Below, piece by piece: positions 13,929-62,555 of a stretch of 64,000 nt of DNA. Origin of the DNA: Streptantibioticus ferralitis (GTDB lineage Bacteria; Actinomycetota; Actinomycetes; Streptomycetales; Streptomycetaceae); NCBI RefSeq assembly GCF_029223525.1, contig NZ_JARHTQ010000008.1:186001-250000 (forward strand), written 5' to 3'. The notes beneath the pieces are model-generated. The model ran no database searches. It saw only the letters and a program-made list of their open reading frames with translations, and was not told the origin of the DNA. Within the stretch, counting starts at the first letter, position 1. Each line of letters starts with the position of its first letter. Position numbers and translations under genes: made by a program.

Positions 13929-14236
13929 CGACTGACATCGCGACTGCGCGCCCCGGCGGCGGAAACCACTGAGGCCGTGGGTTACGCACCGCGGCGGCGA
14001 AAACCCACCGACGCCGTCGGTTACCCGCCGCAGCGACGGAAAACCGCTGACGCCGTCGGTCACGCACCGCAGGGCGGAAACCGCTGACGCCGTCGGTCAC
14101 GCACCGCGGCGGCGAAAACCCACCGACGCCGTCGGTTACCCACCGCAGCGACGGAAAACCGCTGACGCCGTCGGGCACGCACCGCGGTAGCGGAAACCCA
14201 CCGACCACGTGGTCGCTCGCCGCCGAAGGCGAATTC
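13929..14236. repeat. tandem array of about eight 37-40 bp units
   Basis: Units begin at about 13929, 13966, 14005, 14045, 14082, 14120, 14160 and 14198. Each is built as (C)GACGCCGTCGGT, then ACGCACCGC or ACCCGCCGC, then GGCGGCGAAAACC or AGCGACGGAAAAC. Units 2 and 5, and 3, 4 and 6, are nearly identical, giving a higher-order pattern of about 115 bp (14005 versus 14120). The outermost units are degenerate, and the last merges into half of an R1 element. Lengths vary, so no reading frame is kept. Confidence 0.75.
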
Positions 14237-21002: not shown

Positions 21003-21059
21003 CCGCCGCAACGGCAAGCAACCACGGCGATGCAGACCGGCGGAGCCCAAACCGGCCGC
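21003..21059 (-). repeat. R1 dispersed repeat, copy 6 (inverted)
   Basis: The reverse complement reads GCGGCCGGTTTGGGCTCC, GCCGGTCTGCATCGCC, then GTGGTTGCTTGCCGTTGCGG. It is inverted relative to copies 4 and 5, and its left end continues into the tandem array. Confidence 0.7.
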
Positions 21060-21287
21060 AAACCGGATCCGAAGCCACCCGACGGAGCCCAAACCGACCA
21101 CAACCCGGCGGCGCCAAACCGACCGCAACCCGAATCCGAAGCCACCCGGCGGCGCCGAACCGGCCGCAAACCGGATCCGAAGCCACCCGACGGAGCCCGA
21201 ACCGACCACGACCCGGCGGCGCCGAACCGAGCACAACCCGGATCCGAAGGCGCCCGGCGGGGCCGGACCAGCCGCAAACCGCGGTAG
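21031..21287. repeat. tandem array of alternating 41-bp and 26-bp units
   Basis: Units share GGCGCCGAACCG or GGAGCCCAAACCG followed by GCCGCAAACC or ACCACAACCC. The longer units add GGATCCGAAGCCACCC. The order is roughly long, short, long, long, short, long, short. The common part is the reverse complement of the left end of R1, so the array appears to have grown by repeating one end of that element. Confidence 0.7.
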
Positions 21288-26186: not shown

Positions 26187-26339
26187 CTAGAGCCGCAGCA
26201 GTCCCGCGGCCAGCGACATCGCCGAGCCGAGGCCGAGCAGTACGACCACGCTCTTCGGCATCTTCTGCTTCCAGAAGGAGTAAACGCCTCCGGCGAGGAA
26301 CAGCCCCAACAGGATGAAGAGCATCGCCGCCTTGTTCAC
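26187..26339 (-). CDS. 50-aa membrane protein inside the his operon
   Basis: GTG 26339 overlaps the hisB stop by 4 bases (GTGA), the same coupling used elsewhere in this operon, and this decides the start. The peptide ([18 protein letters not shown], then YSFWKQKMPKSVVVLLGLG) has two short hydrophobic helices joined by a basic turn and no other feature. A small protein at this place is seen in Streptomyces his operons, but I know of no function. Longer frames starting upstream would run through hisB and are not credible. Confidence 0.75.
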   Translation of the reverse strand: MNKAAMLFILLGLFLAGGVYSFWKQKMPKSVVVLLGLGSAMSLAAGLLRL

Positions 26340-27088
26340 AGCGCACCCTTGGTCGACGGGATCCCGGTCTGCCGCGGATCGATCTCCGAGGCGTAGCGCA
26401 GTGCGCGGGCGAGCGCCTTGAACTGGCACTCCACGATGTGGTGCGCGTTGCGCCCGTAGGGGACGTGCACATGCAGGGCGATCTGCGCCTGCGCGACGAA
26501 GGACTCCAGTATGTGCCGGGTCATGGTGGTGTCGTACGTGCCGATCATGGGCGCGATGCCCTCCGGCTCGGTGTGCACCAGGAACGGGCGGCCGGACAGG
26601 TCGACGGTCACCTGGGCCAGCGACTCGTCCAGCGGGACCGAGGCGTTGGCGAACCTGACGATGCCGCGCTTGTCGCCGAGCGCCTGCTTGAACGCGGCAC
26701 CGAGCGCCAGCGAGGTGTCCTCGATGGTGTGGTGGGTGTCGATGTGCAGGTCGCCGTCGGTCTTGACGGTGAGGTCGAACAGGCCGTGGCGGCCCAGCTG
26801 GTCGAGCATGTGGTCGTAGAAGCCGACGCCCGTCGACACATCGACCTGTCCGGTGCCGTCGAGATTGATCTCGACGACGACCGAGGTCTCCTTGGTGGTG
26901 CGCTCCACGCGGCCCACGCGGGTCATGCCCTCCCGTCGCCCACCACCGCCCTCAAAGGAGGTGCCATGCACCGCTGCCACTCCCTCTCGTCGCCCACCAC
27001 CGCCCTCAAAGGAGGTGCCATGCACCGCTGCCACTCCCTCTCGTCGCCCACCACCGCCCTCAAAGGAGGTGCCATGCACCGCTGTCAC
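26336..27088 (-). CDS. hisB: imidazoleglycerol-phosphate dehydratase with repeat-derived N-terminal extension
   Basis: The catalytic core starts at ATG 26926 ([14 protein letters not shown]) and has the usual 196 aa, with His-rich metal motifs [19 protein letters not shown] and [15 protein letters not shown]. The frame stays open for exactly 54 more codons up to GTG 27088. That GTG overlaps the hisC stop (GTGA) and has AAGGAG eight bases upstream. ATG 26926 has only GGGAGG two bases away, too close to be ideal. I therefore give GTG 27088 as the more likely start. The added residues are three 18-aa copies of [18 protein letters not shown]. If ATG 26926 is used instead, the repeat is an untranslated spacer. 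Confidence 0.85.
26927..27088 (-). repeat. 3 x 54-bp in-frame tandem repeat before the hisB core
   Basis: Three head-to-tail copies fill exactly 162 bp, from the base after the hisB ATG to the GTG overlapping the hisC stop. The marker CGTCGCCC occurs at 26934, 26988 and 27042. Copies differ at only about two positions. On the minus strand each unit holds GGTGCATGGCACC, a 5-bp hairpin, then CTCCTTTGAGGGCGG. On the plus strand each shows AAAGGAGGTG four bases before an ATG, a perfect ribosome-site sequence in antisense. The same unit occurs in murD (62137-62236). Confidence 0.9.
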
Positions 27089-28191
27089 TTTCCGTTCTCC
27101 TTCATCAGCTCGCGTACCGCGTCGAGGAACGCGTCGTTCTCGGCCGGGGTGCCCGCGGTGACGCGTAGCCAACCCGGTACTCCGTTGTCACGGACCAGTA
27201 CGCCGCGATCCAGCAAACCCTGCCAGGCGGCGTGCGCGTCCTCGAACCGGCCGAACTGCACGAAGTTGGCGTCCGAGTCCGTCACCTCGCAGCCGATCGC
27301 CCGCAGCTCGGTGACCAGCCGGTCCCGCTCGGCCTTCAGCTGCTCGACGTACCCCAGCAGAGTATCCGTGTGCTCCAAAGCGGCGAGCGCGGTGGCCTGG
27401 GTGACGGACGACAGGTGGTACGGCAGCCGCACCAGCTGGACCGCGTCGACCACGGCGGGGTCGGCGGCCAGGTAGCCGAGGCGCAGTCCGGCGGCGCCGA
27501 ACGCCTTGGACATGGTGCGGGACACCACCAGATTCGGACGGCCTTCGATGAGCGCCAGCAGCGACGGGCGGTGCGAGAACTCGCCATACGCCTCGTCCAC
27601 CACCACCAGCGAGGGCTTGGCGGCCTGCGCCGCGTCGTGCAGCGCGAGCACGGTTTGGGCGTCCACGGCGGTGCCGGTGGGGTTGTTGGGCGAGCAGATG
27701 AAGACCACATCGGGCCGGTGCGCGGCGATCTCGTCCTTCGCCGCCTCGACGTCGATGGTGAAGTCCGCGGTGCGGGGCCCGGAGATCCAGCCGGTTCCGG
27801 TGCCGCGGGAGATCAGCGCGTGCATCGAGTACGAGGGCTCGAAGCCGAGCGCGGTGCGGCCGGGCCCGCCGAAGGTCTGCAGCAGCTGCTGGATGACCTC
27901 GTTGGAGCCGTTCGCCGCCCAGACACCGGCGAGTCCGATCCGGTGGCCGGTGGTCCGGGTCAGATAGGCGGCCAGCTGGGTGCGCAGTTCCACCGCGTCC
28001 CGGTCCGGGTAGCGGTTGAGCCCGCGGGCCGCCTCGCGGACCCGCTCGGCGATCCGCTCGACCAGCGGCTCCGGCAGCGGGTACGGGTTCTCGTTGGTGT
28101 TCAGGCGCACCGGGACGTCGAGTTGGGGGGCGCCGTACGGGGTCTTGCCGCGCAGCTCGTCCCGGATCGGGAGATCGTCGATTCGGGTCAC
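27085..28191 (-). CDS. hisC: histidinol-phosphate aminotransferase
   Basis: 368 aa from GTG 28191, which overlaps the hisD stop by 4 bases. It is a fold-type I PLP enzyme that transfers an amino group from glutamate to imidazole acetol phosphate. The PLP Lys is in [17 protein letters not shown] (residue about 229), the cofactor Asp/Tyr in [10 protein letters not shown], and the substrate-binding [10 protein letters not shown] lies near residue 32. It ends directly at the 54-bp repeat array. Confidence 0.95.
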
Positions 28192-47631: not shown

Positions 47632-48468
47632 TCAGCGGCGTTCGGTCCGCTGCTTGCACTCAACGCACAGGGTTGCCCTCGGGAATGCCTGCATGCGGGC
47701 CTTTCCGATCGGCTTGCCACAGGATTCGCACAAGCCGTACGTGCCATTGTCCAGGCGTTCGAGCGCGTGCTCGGTCTGCAGCAGCATCTCCCTGGCGTTT
47801 TCGGCCAGGGCGATCTCGTGCTCGCGTGAGATGTTCTTGGTCCCGACGTCCGCCTGGTCGTCCCCAGCGCCATCGCCGGAGTCCCGCATCAGGCCTGAGA
47901 TCGCGTCCTCGGAGGCGAGGATCTCGCTGCGCAGCCGAGCGGCCTCGTCCATCAGCGCGGTCCGCGCCTCCGCGACCTCCGCCGGTGACCAGGGCTCCTC
48001 TCCTGGGCGTACGGCGAGGGTCCCGGGGTCGACCGGGCCGGGGTCCGCCGCGGCGCGCGCGGACGGAAGCGGGGAGGCCCCACGGGCCGCTGTCTTCTTC
48101 GCAACCACCGTCTTGGCTCCTGTCTGCTTAGCGGTCGCGCTCTTTTTCGCGGCCGTCGCCCTCTTGGTGGTGGTGCTCCTGGCCGCCGCCTTCCTGGCGA
48201 CGGCCTTCTTGGCCGGGGACTTCTTCGCCCCGGTCCTTCCTTCCGCTGCGGCGTCGGGTGTCGCCGCCTCCTTCTCGGCCGCCGTCTTCGCCATGGTCCT
48301 CTTGGCGGGGGCCTTCTTCGCCGGAATCTTCGCCTGGGTCTTCTTGGCCGGGCTCTTCTTGGCTGGGCTCTTCTTGGCTGGGCTCTTCTTGGCCGCGGTC
48401 TTCTGGGTGGCGGCCTTCTTGGCGGTGGGCGCCGGTCTCTTCGGCGCTGCGGTCTTCTTCACCACCAT
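47632..48468 (-). CDS. DksA/TraR-type zinc-finger protein with Lys/Ala-rich histone-like N-terminus
   Basis: 278 aa from ATG 48468 with AAGGGG about 9 bases upstream. Residues 1-140 are almost only Lys, Ala, Pro, Thr and Ser, with repeats of AKKSP and three tandem KKSPA units. This resembles histone H1 tails and should bind DNA or RNA nonspecifically. Residues about 165-278 are a DksA-like coiled-coil helix pair ([21 protein letters not shown]) and the four-Cys zinc finger [26 protein letters not shown]. DksA proteins act on RNA polymerase; here a joint nucleoid/transcription role is an inference. Confidence 0.88.
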
Positions 48469-52330: not shown

Positions 52331-53533
52331 TCAGTTGTCGTCCTCGTCGATCAGGAAACCCCGCATCGGCGTGGGCGCCTGCTGCAGCGGCTGCGGGCCC
52401 TGGGGCCGCACCGGTGCCATCGGCTGTGTCATGGCCGGTGACATCTGCTGCTGACCGCCGTAGGTCTGGTTACCGCCGGCACCGCCCATCTGCTGGCCGC
52501 CGTAGGTCTGGTTGCCACCGTTGGTGTGCCCCATCGCTCCGGCACCGGCCGCGGCCATGCCGCCACCCATCGAGCCGCCACCCATCGAGCCGCCGCCCAT
52601 GGTGCCGCCGCCGAGCGAGCCGCCCATGGTGGACGACGAGGGCAGCGACGCGGTCGCGGGCGTCCGCGGCGGGGCCAGCGAGTCGTCCGCCTGGTTCTCC
52701 AACTGCCGCAGCTGGCTCTCCAGGTAGGACTTCAGACGCGTCCGGTACTCCCGCTCGAAGCCCCGCAGGTCCTCGACCTTGCGCTCCAGCGTGGCGCGGG
52801 CCGACTCCAGCGAGCCCATCGCGACGCGGTGCTTCTCCTGCGCGTCCCGCTCAAGGGCGTCCGCCTTGGCACGGGCGTCGCGCTCCAGACCCTCGGCGCG
52901 GCTGCGCGCCTCGCCGACGATCTTGTTGGCCTCGGAACGGGCCTCCGCGATCGCCTGGTCGGCGGTCTGCTGCGCCAGCGAGAGCACCCGGGCGGCGCTG
53001 TCGCCACCGGGACCACCCTGCTGCATGGGGTGACCGGGACCCCCCTGCATCGGGTGCTGTCCCATCGGACCGGGACCCATCGGGCCCTGACCCATGGGAC
53101 CGGGACCCATCGGGCCCTGTCCCATCGGACCCTGACCCATCGGGCCCTGACCCATGGGACCGGGACCCATCGGGCCCTGGCCCTGCGGGCCGTGCTGCGC
53201 GCTCGGACCAGCCGGAAGCTGCGGGGCGCCAGGCAGTTGGGGCGGACCGCCCATCTGCTGCTGGCCCGGCGGCACCGGCTGCGGGCCGGATATGGCGGCG
53301 GGCACGGGAGCACCCTGCCGGTCCTGCGGCTCGGGCTTGCGCTGCTGGTTCTGTGCGGCGGCGCGGGTGGCCGCCGCGAGTTTGGCGCGCAGGTCCTCGT
53401 TCTCCCGCAGCAGCCTGGTGAGCTCCGCCTCGACCTCGTCGAGGAAGGCGTCGACCTCGTCCTCGTCATAGCCTTCGCGGAGGCGGACGGTCGTGAACTG
53501 CTTGTTACGAACGTCCTCGGGGGTCAGCGGCAT
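52331..53533 (-). CDS. divIVA: polar growth protein DivIVA
   Basis: 400 aa. It marks hyphal tips and directs apical wall growth. The membrane-binding N-terminus is conserved (LTPEDVRNKQFTTVRLREGYDEDEVDAFLDEVEAELTRLLREN). A long linker from about residue 65 to 165 contains GPMGQGPMG repeats. A coiled coil follows at about 185-280 (AQQTADQAIAEARSEANKIVGEARSRAEGLERDA). The C-terminal tail is Gly/Met/Gln-rich with GGGSMGGG repeats. It is longer than mycobacterial Wag31 (about 260 aa) because of the linker and tail. Confidence 0.95.
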   Translation of the reverse strand: MPLTPEDVRNKQFTTVRLREGYDEDEVDAFLDEVEAELTRLLRENEDLRAKLAAATRAAAQNQQRKPEPQDRQGAPVPAAISGPQPVPPGQQQMGGPPQLPGAPQLPAGPSAQHGPQGQGPMGPGPMGQGPMGQGPMGQGPMGPGPMGQGPMGPGPMGQHPMQGGPGHPMQQGGPGGDSAARVLSLAQQTADQAIAEARSEANKIVGEARSRAEGLERDARAKADALERDAQEKHRVAMGSLESARATLERKVEDLRGFEREYRTRLKSYLESQLRQLENQADDSLAPPRTPATASLPSSSTMGGSLGGGTMGGGSMGGGSMGGGMAAAGAGAMGHTNGGNQTYGGQQMGGAGGNQTYGGQQQMSPAMTQPMAPVRPQGPQPLQQAPTPMRGFLIDEDDN

Positions 53534-61052: not shown

Positions 61053-62555
61053 CTATCGGTTGTTGTGCAGAGCGCGTACGGCCGCGGCGAAGGCATCGCC
61101 GCGCTTGCCGTAGTTGGCGAACATGTCCATCGAGGCACAGGCGGGGGCCAGTAGGACGGTGTCGCCGGGCTGGGCGAGTGCTGCGGCGGCGTCGACCACG
61201 GCCGTCATCGCTTCAGTGTCGGTCCGTTCCAGGTCGACGACCGGGACTTCGGGGGCGTGTCGTCGAAGCGCTTCGGCGATCAGGGCGCGGTCGGCGCCGA
61301 TGAGCACGACCCCGCGAAGTCGCTTTGCCGATTTGGCGACAAGCTCATCGAACGTGGCGCCCTTGGCCAGACCTCCGGCGATCCACACGATGTGCTCATA
61401 GGCGGCCAACGACGCCTCGGCGGCATGGGTGTTGGTGGCCTTGGAGTCGTCGACGTAGTCCACGCCGTCCACGGTGGCCACCCGCTCGATGCGGTGCGCG
61501 TCGGGACGGAAGGCGCGCAGCCCGTCGCGTACCGCGCGCGGTTCGACGCCGTAGGCGCGGGCCAGCGCGGCGGCGGCGAGCGCGTTGGCGATGTTGTGCG
61601 GCGCCGGGGGCTGGACGTCGGTGACCTCGGCCAGTTCCTGGGCGTTCTTGTACCGGTCCTCGACGAAGGCCCGGTCGACCAGGATCCCTTCCACCACGCC
61701 GAGTTGGGAGGGGGCGGGCGTGCCGAGGGTGAAGCCGATGGCCCGGCAGCCCTCTTCGACGTCGGCCGCGCGGACCAGTTCCTCGGTGGCCGGGTCGGCG
61801 GTGTTGTAGACGCAGGCGACCGTGTTGCCCTCGTAGATACGACCCTTGTCAGCGGCGTACGCGGCCATCGAGCCGTGCCAGTCGAGGTGGTCGGGGGCGA
61901 TGTTCAGTACGGCGGCGGAGTGGGCGCGGACGCTGGGCGCCCAGTGCAGTTGGTAGCTGGACAACTCGACGGCGAGGACGTCGTACTCCTCCTCGCCGAG
62001 CACGGCGTCCAGCACGGAGACGCCGATGTTGCCGACGGCCGCGGTGCGCAGGCCCGCCGCCTTCAGGATCGAGGCGAGCATCTGGACGGTGGTGGTCTTG
62101 CCGTTGGTCCCGGTGACCGCGAGCCAGGGGGCGGCGCCCGCCCGTCGCCCACCACCACCCTCAACCGAGGCGCTACGCGCCGCGGATACACCCGCCCGTC
62201 GCCCACCACCACCCTCAACCGAGGCGCTACGCGCCGTGCCGCGTAGCCGCCAGGCCAGCTCCACGTCGCCCCAGACCTCGATGCCCACATCCGCGGCTGC
62301 CGCGAAGAGCGGGCTGGTGGGCTTCCAGCCGGGCGAGGTGACGATGAGGTCGGTGCCCTCGGGCAGGGTGTCACCGTCGCCGAGGCGGACCGTGATGCCC
62401 TCGCCCCCAAGAGCGGCCGCGGTCTCCCGCTGCCGCTCGCCGTCGCCGCCGTCGACCACGGTGACGTGCGCGCCGAGACCGGCGAGCACCCGGGCGGCGC
62501 TGACCCCGGAGACGCCGAGCCCGGCGACCGTGACGTGCTTACCCGACAGTTCCAT
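61053..62555 (-). CDS. murD: UDP-MurNAc-L-Ala--D-Glu ligase with 33-residue repeat insertion
   Basis: 500 aa from ATG 62555 (MELSGKHVTVAGLGVSG), about 30 longer than usual. It adds D-glutamate to the wall precursor. The ATP loop is AVTGTNGKTTTVQML; further motifs are HLDWHGSMAAYAADKGRIY (carbamylated-Lys region) and YVDDSKATNTHAAEASLAA. Between the N-terminal domain (WRLRGT) and the ATP loop (AAPWLAVTG), about 33 residues are inserted: two copies of ARSASVEGGGGRRAG, the first followed by VSA. The insertion is in the interdomain linker and keeps the frame, so the enzyme is probably active. Confidence 0.95.
   Translation of the reverse strand: MELSGKHVTVAGLGVSGVSAARVLAGLGAHVTVVDGGDGERQRETAAALGGEGITVRLGDGDTLPEGTDLIVTSPGWKPTSPLFAAAADVGIEVWGDVELAWRLRGTARSASVEGGGGRRAGVSAARSASVEGGGGRRAGAAPWLAVTGTNGKTTTVQMLASILKAAGLRTAAVGNIGVSVLDAVLGEEEYDVLAVELSSYQLHWAPSVRAHSAAVLNIAPDHLDWHGSMAAYAADKGRIYEGNTVACVYNTADPATEELVRAADVEEGCRAIGFTLGTPAPSQLGVVEGILVDRAFVEDRYKNAQELAEVTDVQPPAPHNIANALAAAALARAYGVEPRAVRDGLRAFRPDAHRIERVATVDGVDYVDDSKATNTHAAEASLAAYEHIVWIAGGLAKGATFDELVAKSAKRLRGVVLIGADRALIAEALRRHAPEVPVVDLERTDTEAMTAVVDAAAALAQPGDTVLLAPACASMDMFANYGKRGDAFAAAVRALHNNR
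62137..62236 (-). repeat. about 2 x 54-bp in-frame tandem repeat inside murD
   Basis: Copy one is 62137-62190 and copy two 62191-62236, identical over the shared 46 bp. The plus-strand unit begins CCCGCCCGTCGCCC, then ACCACCACCCTCAACCGAGG, then CGCTACGCGCCG. It aligns with the hisB unit over its whole length at the same 54-bp period. On the minus strand GGCGCGTAGCGCC can fold as a 5-bp hairpin at the place where the hisB unit has GGTGCATGGCACC. Confidence 0.9.

Follow-up and report, generated by a model that had tools for sequence, protein, structure and literature searches.

Short hairpin-bearing tandem repeats, probably mobile, read in frame within genes of Streptantibioticus ferralitis and other actinomycetes

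Bacterial chromosomes carry several kinds of short dispersed repeat. REP and BIME are short stem-loop repeats present in many copies per chromosome, and the MIRUs of Supply's 1997 description are said to lie between cistrons, to point the same way as the genes and to have no dyad symmetry. MIRUs are 40-100 bp repeats that occupy 41 places in M. tuberculosis H37Rv, some of them polymorphic in copy number (PMC2734929), and are apparently mobile; their insertions fall on start codons, with a coupling of -4 nt (PMC12548453). The palindromic elements of Rickettsia (RPE) measure about 150 bp, lie in frame within unrelated metabolic genes and are read through as extra peptide (PMC10969869).

Here we describe an element found in a 64,000-nt window of Streptantibioticus ferralitis (contig NZ_JARHTQ010000008.1, positions 186,001 to 250,000) that probably represents a family of mobile repeats that are non-autonomous and very small. 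It shares with MIRUs a unit size within 40-100 bp and a dispersed and often tandem arrangement (41 arrays, periods of 51-57 bp); a few of its arrays lie at ATGA overlaps, one of them in a two-component pair, and may correspond to the start-codon insertion of MIRUs. It is set apart from MIRUs by description: 11 of the 41 source-genome arrays lie in genes, six of them antisense, and the element has a covarying hairpin whereas MIRUs reportedly have no dyad symmetry. With the RPEs it has in common the in-frame insertion into unrelated genes and the read-through, and the likeness drawn in the preliminary description holds for behaviour. However, the element is about 54 bp long with a 13-nt hairpin compared with about 150 bp for the RPEs; it multiplies in tandem, can land on start codons as well and occurs in actinomycetes. 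Like REP and BIME it is a short stem-loop repeat in many copies, but it is found inside genes, and no Y1 transposase match was obtained in three genomes of the genus. MITEs too are small non-autonomous repeats; unlike them, the element shows by eye no terminal inverted repeats in its consensus and, among the gene clusters listed from 163 loci, no recurrent transposase-like neighbour. Because its size, number and, in a minority of arrays, start-codon landing resemble MIRUs and its read-through resembles RPEs, while it contrasts with each in other features, we place it in neither class. The literature searched, in which coverage of subscription journals is thin, held no published description or name for it.

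The element extends to free-living actinomycetes with large genomes a behaviour best known from Rickettsia, that of a repeat adding peptide segments to essential enzymes. Its copies in MurD, AroB, PepN, GalE and AckA are natural linker insertions, several of which have empty relatives as controls. It is a possible source of new protein segments, its arrays are likely variable-number loci for strain typing, and it offers a test case for the movement of MIRU-like elements without an obvious transposase.

The repeat in murD and at hisC/hisB

The gene murD (UDP-N-acetylmuramoylalanine-D-glutamate ligase; 61053..62555, minus strand) remains open across an insert of two tandem, in-frame units at 62136..62240 (minus strand), recognised from the sequence and a motif scan and empty in the congener G001. 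The minus-strand translation reads WRLRGT-ARSASVEGGGGRRAG-VSA-ARSASVEGGGGRRAG-AAPWLAVTGTNGKT, and the motif scan places the two cores 54 nt apart; the pair does not appear in the Tandem Repeats Finder list of the window. Alignment to solved structures puts the insert between the N-terminal and the ATP-binding domain: the solved chain 3lk7 matches MurD on both sides, over residues 9-108 and then 114-448, with the gap at the insert site, and two further structure alignments shown interrupt at the same point. The preliminary description had reported two in-frame units between these domains, as the translation and the 3lk7 gap bear out, and an added length of 33 residues; the linker has 62 residues against 30 over the same span of the empty congener orthologue, so the added length is 32 codons.

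At the hisC/hisB start-stop overlap stand three tandem 54-bp units (26927..27085, minus strand), a site that is empty in G002, G007, G011 and G017 and holds a short remnant in G001. The stop codon of hisC (27085..28191, minus strand; named by family match) overlaps the first GTGA of the array. The hisB gene (26336..27088, minus strand) runs from the GTG of this GTGA through 54 array-derived codons to its old ATG at 26926; the part read from the old ATG matches the HisB family. Tandem Repeats Finder reports this array at 26928-27089 with a period of 54 and 98% matches. It also lists other arrays in the window: one at 13947-14233 with periods of 39, 78 and 115 bp, whose consensus does not resemble the element; one at 21036-21281 with a higher-order period of 108 bp, which may be a coding repeat rich in proline; and short-period arrays at 48285-48425 (15/30/42 bp) and 53048-53191 (15/30/60 bp) with the look of coding repeats of low complexity. 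The murD and hisB units had been described as one shared repeat with a period of 54 and a common peptide, S-x-EGGGGRR-x-G, all of which we find; the hisB array, though, sits at the overlap of two genes and lengthens HisB at its N-terminus.

A unit of about 48-51 nt consists of a 13-nt hairpin followed by a near-fixed G-rich tail, GTTGAGGGYGGTGGYGGGCGACGGGCGGGC. On the G-rich strand the consensus is CNGC, the hairpin GGCGC-GNA-GCGCC, TCCGTT, GAGGGYGGTGGYGGGCGACG and GGCGGGC. In the murD unit nearer the N-terminus, the hairpin GGCGC-GTA-GCGCC lies at 62223..62235 and the conserved tail at 62191..62216, both on the minus strand. The change from GGCGC/GCGCC to GGTGC/GCACC between units had earlier been taken to suggest selection on structure, and the wider alignment strengthens that suggestion. 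Across 41 aligned units of one genome, 90.2% of stem cells are paired and 26 double-sided stem changes are found compared with 6.0 in shuffles, a number reached in 0 of 500; stems slid along the alignment give 21-75% pairing and 2-12 double-sided changes. Two further counts do not favour the hairpin, namely the number of pairs altered on both sides (4 versus 2.8 in shuffles; 114 of 500) and further pair types (12, versus 13 in one slid version). When units of other genera are included, 617 of 912 cells are paired in 152 units, the maximum in 1000 shuffles being 489; this count covers six pairs, the outermost of which forms in only 55 of the 152 units. The loop is GNA in 73 of the 152. The sequence d(GCGNAGC) forms an unusually stable DNA mini-hairpin. 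Single-sequence DNA folding of four units was unremarkable (z -1.8 to +0.3), and the case for the hairpin therefore rests on covariation. Nocardiopsis copies have different stems and an unchanged tail, the tail having been required by the search pattern. A search of 15 loci against Rfam returned no match to the element at gathering scores, the sole match being an adjacent tRNA.

Distribution of copies and empty sites

Chance does not account for the repeat: with up to 2 mismatches, a 20-mer of the unit matched the source genome (8.8 Mb, 110 contigs) 79 times, compared with 3 for the reversed control. The 40 regions fetched, together with the window, make up 41 arrays; two places with 2 mismatches lie outside this set and three matches were discarded as chance. 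In total these arrays hold 73 units, with several units in 16 of the 41, and they reach many genes besides murD, in keeping with the dispersed in-frame repeat in core genes that had been proposed. Units are far more alike within arrays (identity 0.947, 58 pairs) than between loci of the source genome (0.733, 2570 pairs), which shows local growth of the tandem arrays. No two loci of this genome carry identical units, the best pair agreeing at 95% over 44 nt, and thus nothing points to very recent movement. Tandem periods are 51-57 bp, apart from one interval of 110. The spacing is 54 in all eight intervals of coding arrays and in 8 of 24 elsewhere, a regularity that we attribute to selection on the reading frame.

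Beyond this species, a related 20-mer matched three genomes of the genus 64, 52 and 20 times with up to 1 mismatch (reversed control, 0). Of 81 genomes drawn across the family, 45, including the three of the genus, matched a 26-mer with up to 2 mismatches (reversed control, 2 in total). A class-wide draw with a 28-mer and up to 1 mismatch found 13 of 296 genomes (reversed control, 0): the source genome, 4 of the 27 of genus g10 and all 8 of genus g54. The matches listed for the exact 28-mer, which supply the named loci below and whose tail conservation is fixed by the query, belong to Streptomyces, Streptantibioticus, Kitasatospora, Streptacidiphilus, Nocardiopsis, Allosalinactinospora and Amycolatopsis. 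By BLAST with the low-complexity filter on, the element matched no phage record and one plasmid-listed Streptomyces record of 2.8 Mb, and no viral contig of IMG/VR contained its exact 26-mer. On these searches the element is essentially chromosomal, and carriage by phages or plasmids was rejected.

Orthologous sites could be read in both congeners, G001 and G002, for 16 of the 41 arrays, and host genes were named from family matches and structure alignments. The element is missing from at least one congener at 11 of the 16 and from both at 6, and it is from such presence and absence across relatives that we infer its movement. Sites empty in both congeners are pepN, a UvrD-helicase-like gene, a PAP2 gene, aroB, the permease pair L020 and rsmD, this last named below the family cut-off (106 versus 117.5 bits), perhaps with the gene clipped by the gene finder. 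Those empty in one are murD, an SseB-domain gene (L015), L046, purS/purQ and hisC/hisB. The two-component pair, ackA and the L026 acyltransferase are filled in both, and galE and L017 are ambiguous because the sites show remnants, unusual codons or a degenerate unit. The trpS start, the SseB-domain gene, purS/purQ and the two-component pair are filled in several species, and part of the pattern may for this reason reflect old insertion followed by loss. A unit stands at or just 5' of the trpS start in nine loci, assigned by eye (L056, L071, L077, L087, L090, L121, L125, L136 and L137, the host of L071 being named by family match), and is apparently an old shared insertion.

The murD linker gives the closest view of this history. 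Thirty orthologues were fetched and 22 linkers parsed. Of the latter, 18, one congener included, have no insert, and 4 have one: the source genome, G002, G009 and G023, the last with a composite and partly reversed insert. In G004, of another genus, the linker is empty and an antisense copy lies near residue 270 of the query protein. Copies that differ in site and orientation require separate events, and an empty linker in one congener together with a reversed copy elsewhere in the gene of another genus argues for a mobile repeat and against an old MurD domain. The preliminary description had named a unit confined to murD, without empty sites, as the finding that would speak against mobility; this is not what we find, and empty sites, for which it had proposed a search in sister species, exist at 11 of the 16 arrays read.

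It is possible, if somewhat doubtful, that the copies entered long ago, passed down by vertical descent and disappeared from many lineages, the element being hardly mobile today or not at all. In line with this, locus-specific hairpins mark the filled two-component pair in G000, G001 and G002 and the filled L046 in G000, G002 and G007; the trpS start is occupied in nine loci, the remnant kept by G001 at hisC/hisB is a short left end, and identical units are not shared between loci. Against it, pepN and the helicase-like gene are empty in all five relatives read, three of them outgroups, aroB is empty in both congeners and three outgroups, and the murD copies imply separate events.

Landing sites and codon phase

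By the bounds of a simple gene finder trained on 15 open reading frames of the window, which may err, 19 of the 41 source-genome arrays lie between genes and 11 in genes (5 in sense and 6 in antisense); gene starts hold 8 and gene ends 3. Overall, 158 arrays include 36 in genes in sense, 19 in genes in antisense and 75 between genes. Genera differ among the matches listed: 20 of 41 Streptomyces arrays are in genes in sense, and 17 of 20 Nocardiopsis arrays are intergenic. The preliminary description was right about landing inside genes; it missed the start-stop mode at ATGA, the presence in Nocardiopsis and Amycolatopsis, and the bias in codon phase.

The start-stop mode is clearest at L020. 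In both congeners the empty site reads GGCATGAGCGCC, and the filled site reads ATGACC, then the unit, then GGGCATGAGCGCC. The upstream gene still stops at the left ATGA, where a new frame also opens and continues for 18 codons into the original ATG. The same plan is found at L046, in the two-component pair and at hisC/hisB, where three units make 54 codons. Five of the 41 arrays have an RTGA 27 nt 5' of the core, against an expectation of 0.27 per offset; five have an ATG 27 nt past the core's start, against 0.40 per offset. Both ends, TGA on the left and ATG or GTG on the right, occur together in 4 of the 41 source-genome arrays and in 1 of the 117 arrays of other genomes; start-codon landing is thus not general. 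ATGA is doubled cleanly at L020 and L046 only, gene-internal sites have no consistent target duplication, and at purS/purQ the unit is reverse-oriented, directly after GTGA.

The 55 arrays inside genes span 39 gene families and are read through in frame on either strand. A single codon phase accounts for 35 of 36 sense arrays and 15 of 19 antisense arrays or, counted by gene family, for 24 of 25 in sense (p = 1.5e-6) and 11 of 14 in antisense (p = 7e-4). The sole sense exception, L123, looks like a gene called in the wrong frame. Since the other phases are mostly open (154 of 158 units are open in the alternative sense phase and 153-156 in the three antisense phases), the bias is not driven by stop codons. 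Either selection favours the mildest peptide, which is EGGGGRR in sense and RPSPTTTLNGG in antisense, or the mode of insertion sets the phase. That the phase is locked at insertion, and not only by later selection, seems to us unlikely: the element would enter via or beside translation, start-codon- or mRNA-coupled, as a 54-nt cassette of 18 codons open in one phase on both strands. If true, such a cassette would be a mobile element built for passing unnoticed through essential genes.

The predominance of one phase in genes would also suit a very unlikely reading in which the element is a functional protein module, a flexible EGGGGRR linker that is selected as peptide and spread by recombination. 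Third codon positions are indeed slightly more variable than the first two, but the excess is slight and extends to intergenic copies (0.73, 0.70 and 0.87 bits), and codon wobble gave no support to selection on the peptide. Moreover, 19 of the 55 in-gene arrays are antisense and encode an unrelated peptide of the RPSPTTTLNGG type, 75 of the 158 arrays are intergenic, and all 41 source-genome units, which had been picked with few mismatches, have the A of the CGA codon.

Possible mechanism

In a mobile family of this kind, a single-stranded DNA or RNA intermediate would fold at the hairpin, as the hairpin itself suggests, and hairpin and tail would be recognised by a putative trans-acting enzyme. 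Insertion at ATGA would duplicate 4 bases, element and duplication together making 54 nt, a whole number of codons. Units, once landed, may gain local copies through slippage or unequal recombination. Selection would purge frame-breaking copies, with survivors in linkers, at termini, at start-stop overlaps and between genes. No host benefit is evident from the data here.

By eye, the 25 largest clusters of predicted genes from 163 loci contained no transposase or recurrent mobile neighbour, the clusters being landing-site orthologues. A hairpin with a fixed flank, tandem copies and an essentially chromosomal location would suit a REP/BIME-like repeat moved by a RAYT (Y1 tyrosine) transposase. 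To this reading we give very little credence, since Y1_Tnp (PF01797) had no match in 3 Streptantibioticus-group genomes, with 5 of 14 control genomes positive, and copies lie inside genes. The IS91-like, rolling-circle Y2_Tnp matched 0 of 8 genomes, its control being silent as well. Guidance of insertion by sequence homology between target and element end is scarcely credible and was not supported: the empty site of the PAP2 gene in G002 agrees with the probe GCGACGGGCGGG at 11 of 12 positions (p = 0.003) and L017 in G017 reaches p < 0.02, but the combined p over 13 sites, one relative each, with five probes against random in-frame windows is 0.13-0.50.

Three minor observations concern single loci or variants. 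At L012 (1992-2042), a unit lies between putative rnc and fpg genes, named by eye, and in M. tuberculosis a MIRU-VNTR occupies that intergenic position too (PMC2734929), a match that is probably coincidence. An AT-rich stretch like GAATCAAAAGG precedes the hairpin, by eye, in several Streptomyces copies (L053, L068, L075, L095, L103 and L122) and may extend the element leftwards in that genus. The locus L277 of genome G353 carries an array of nine units with a period of mostly 51 nt and an AAGGG variant of the tail, a variant that is common in other genera of the bacterial family.
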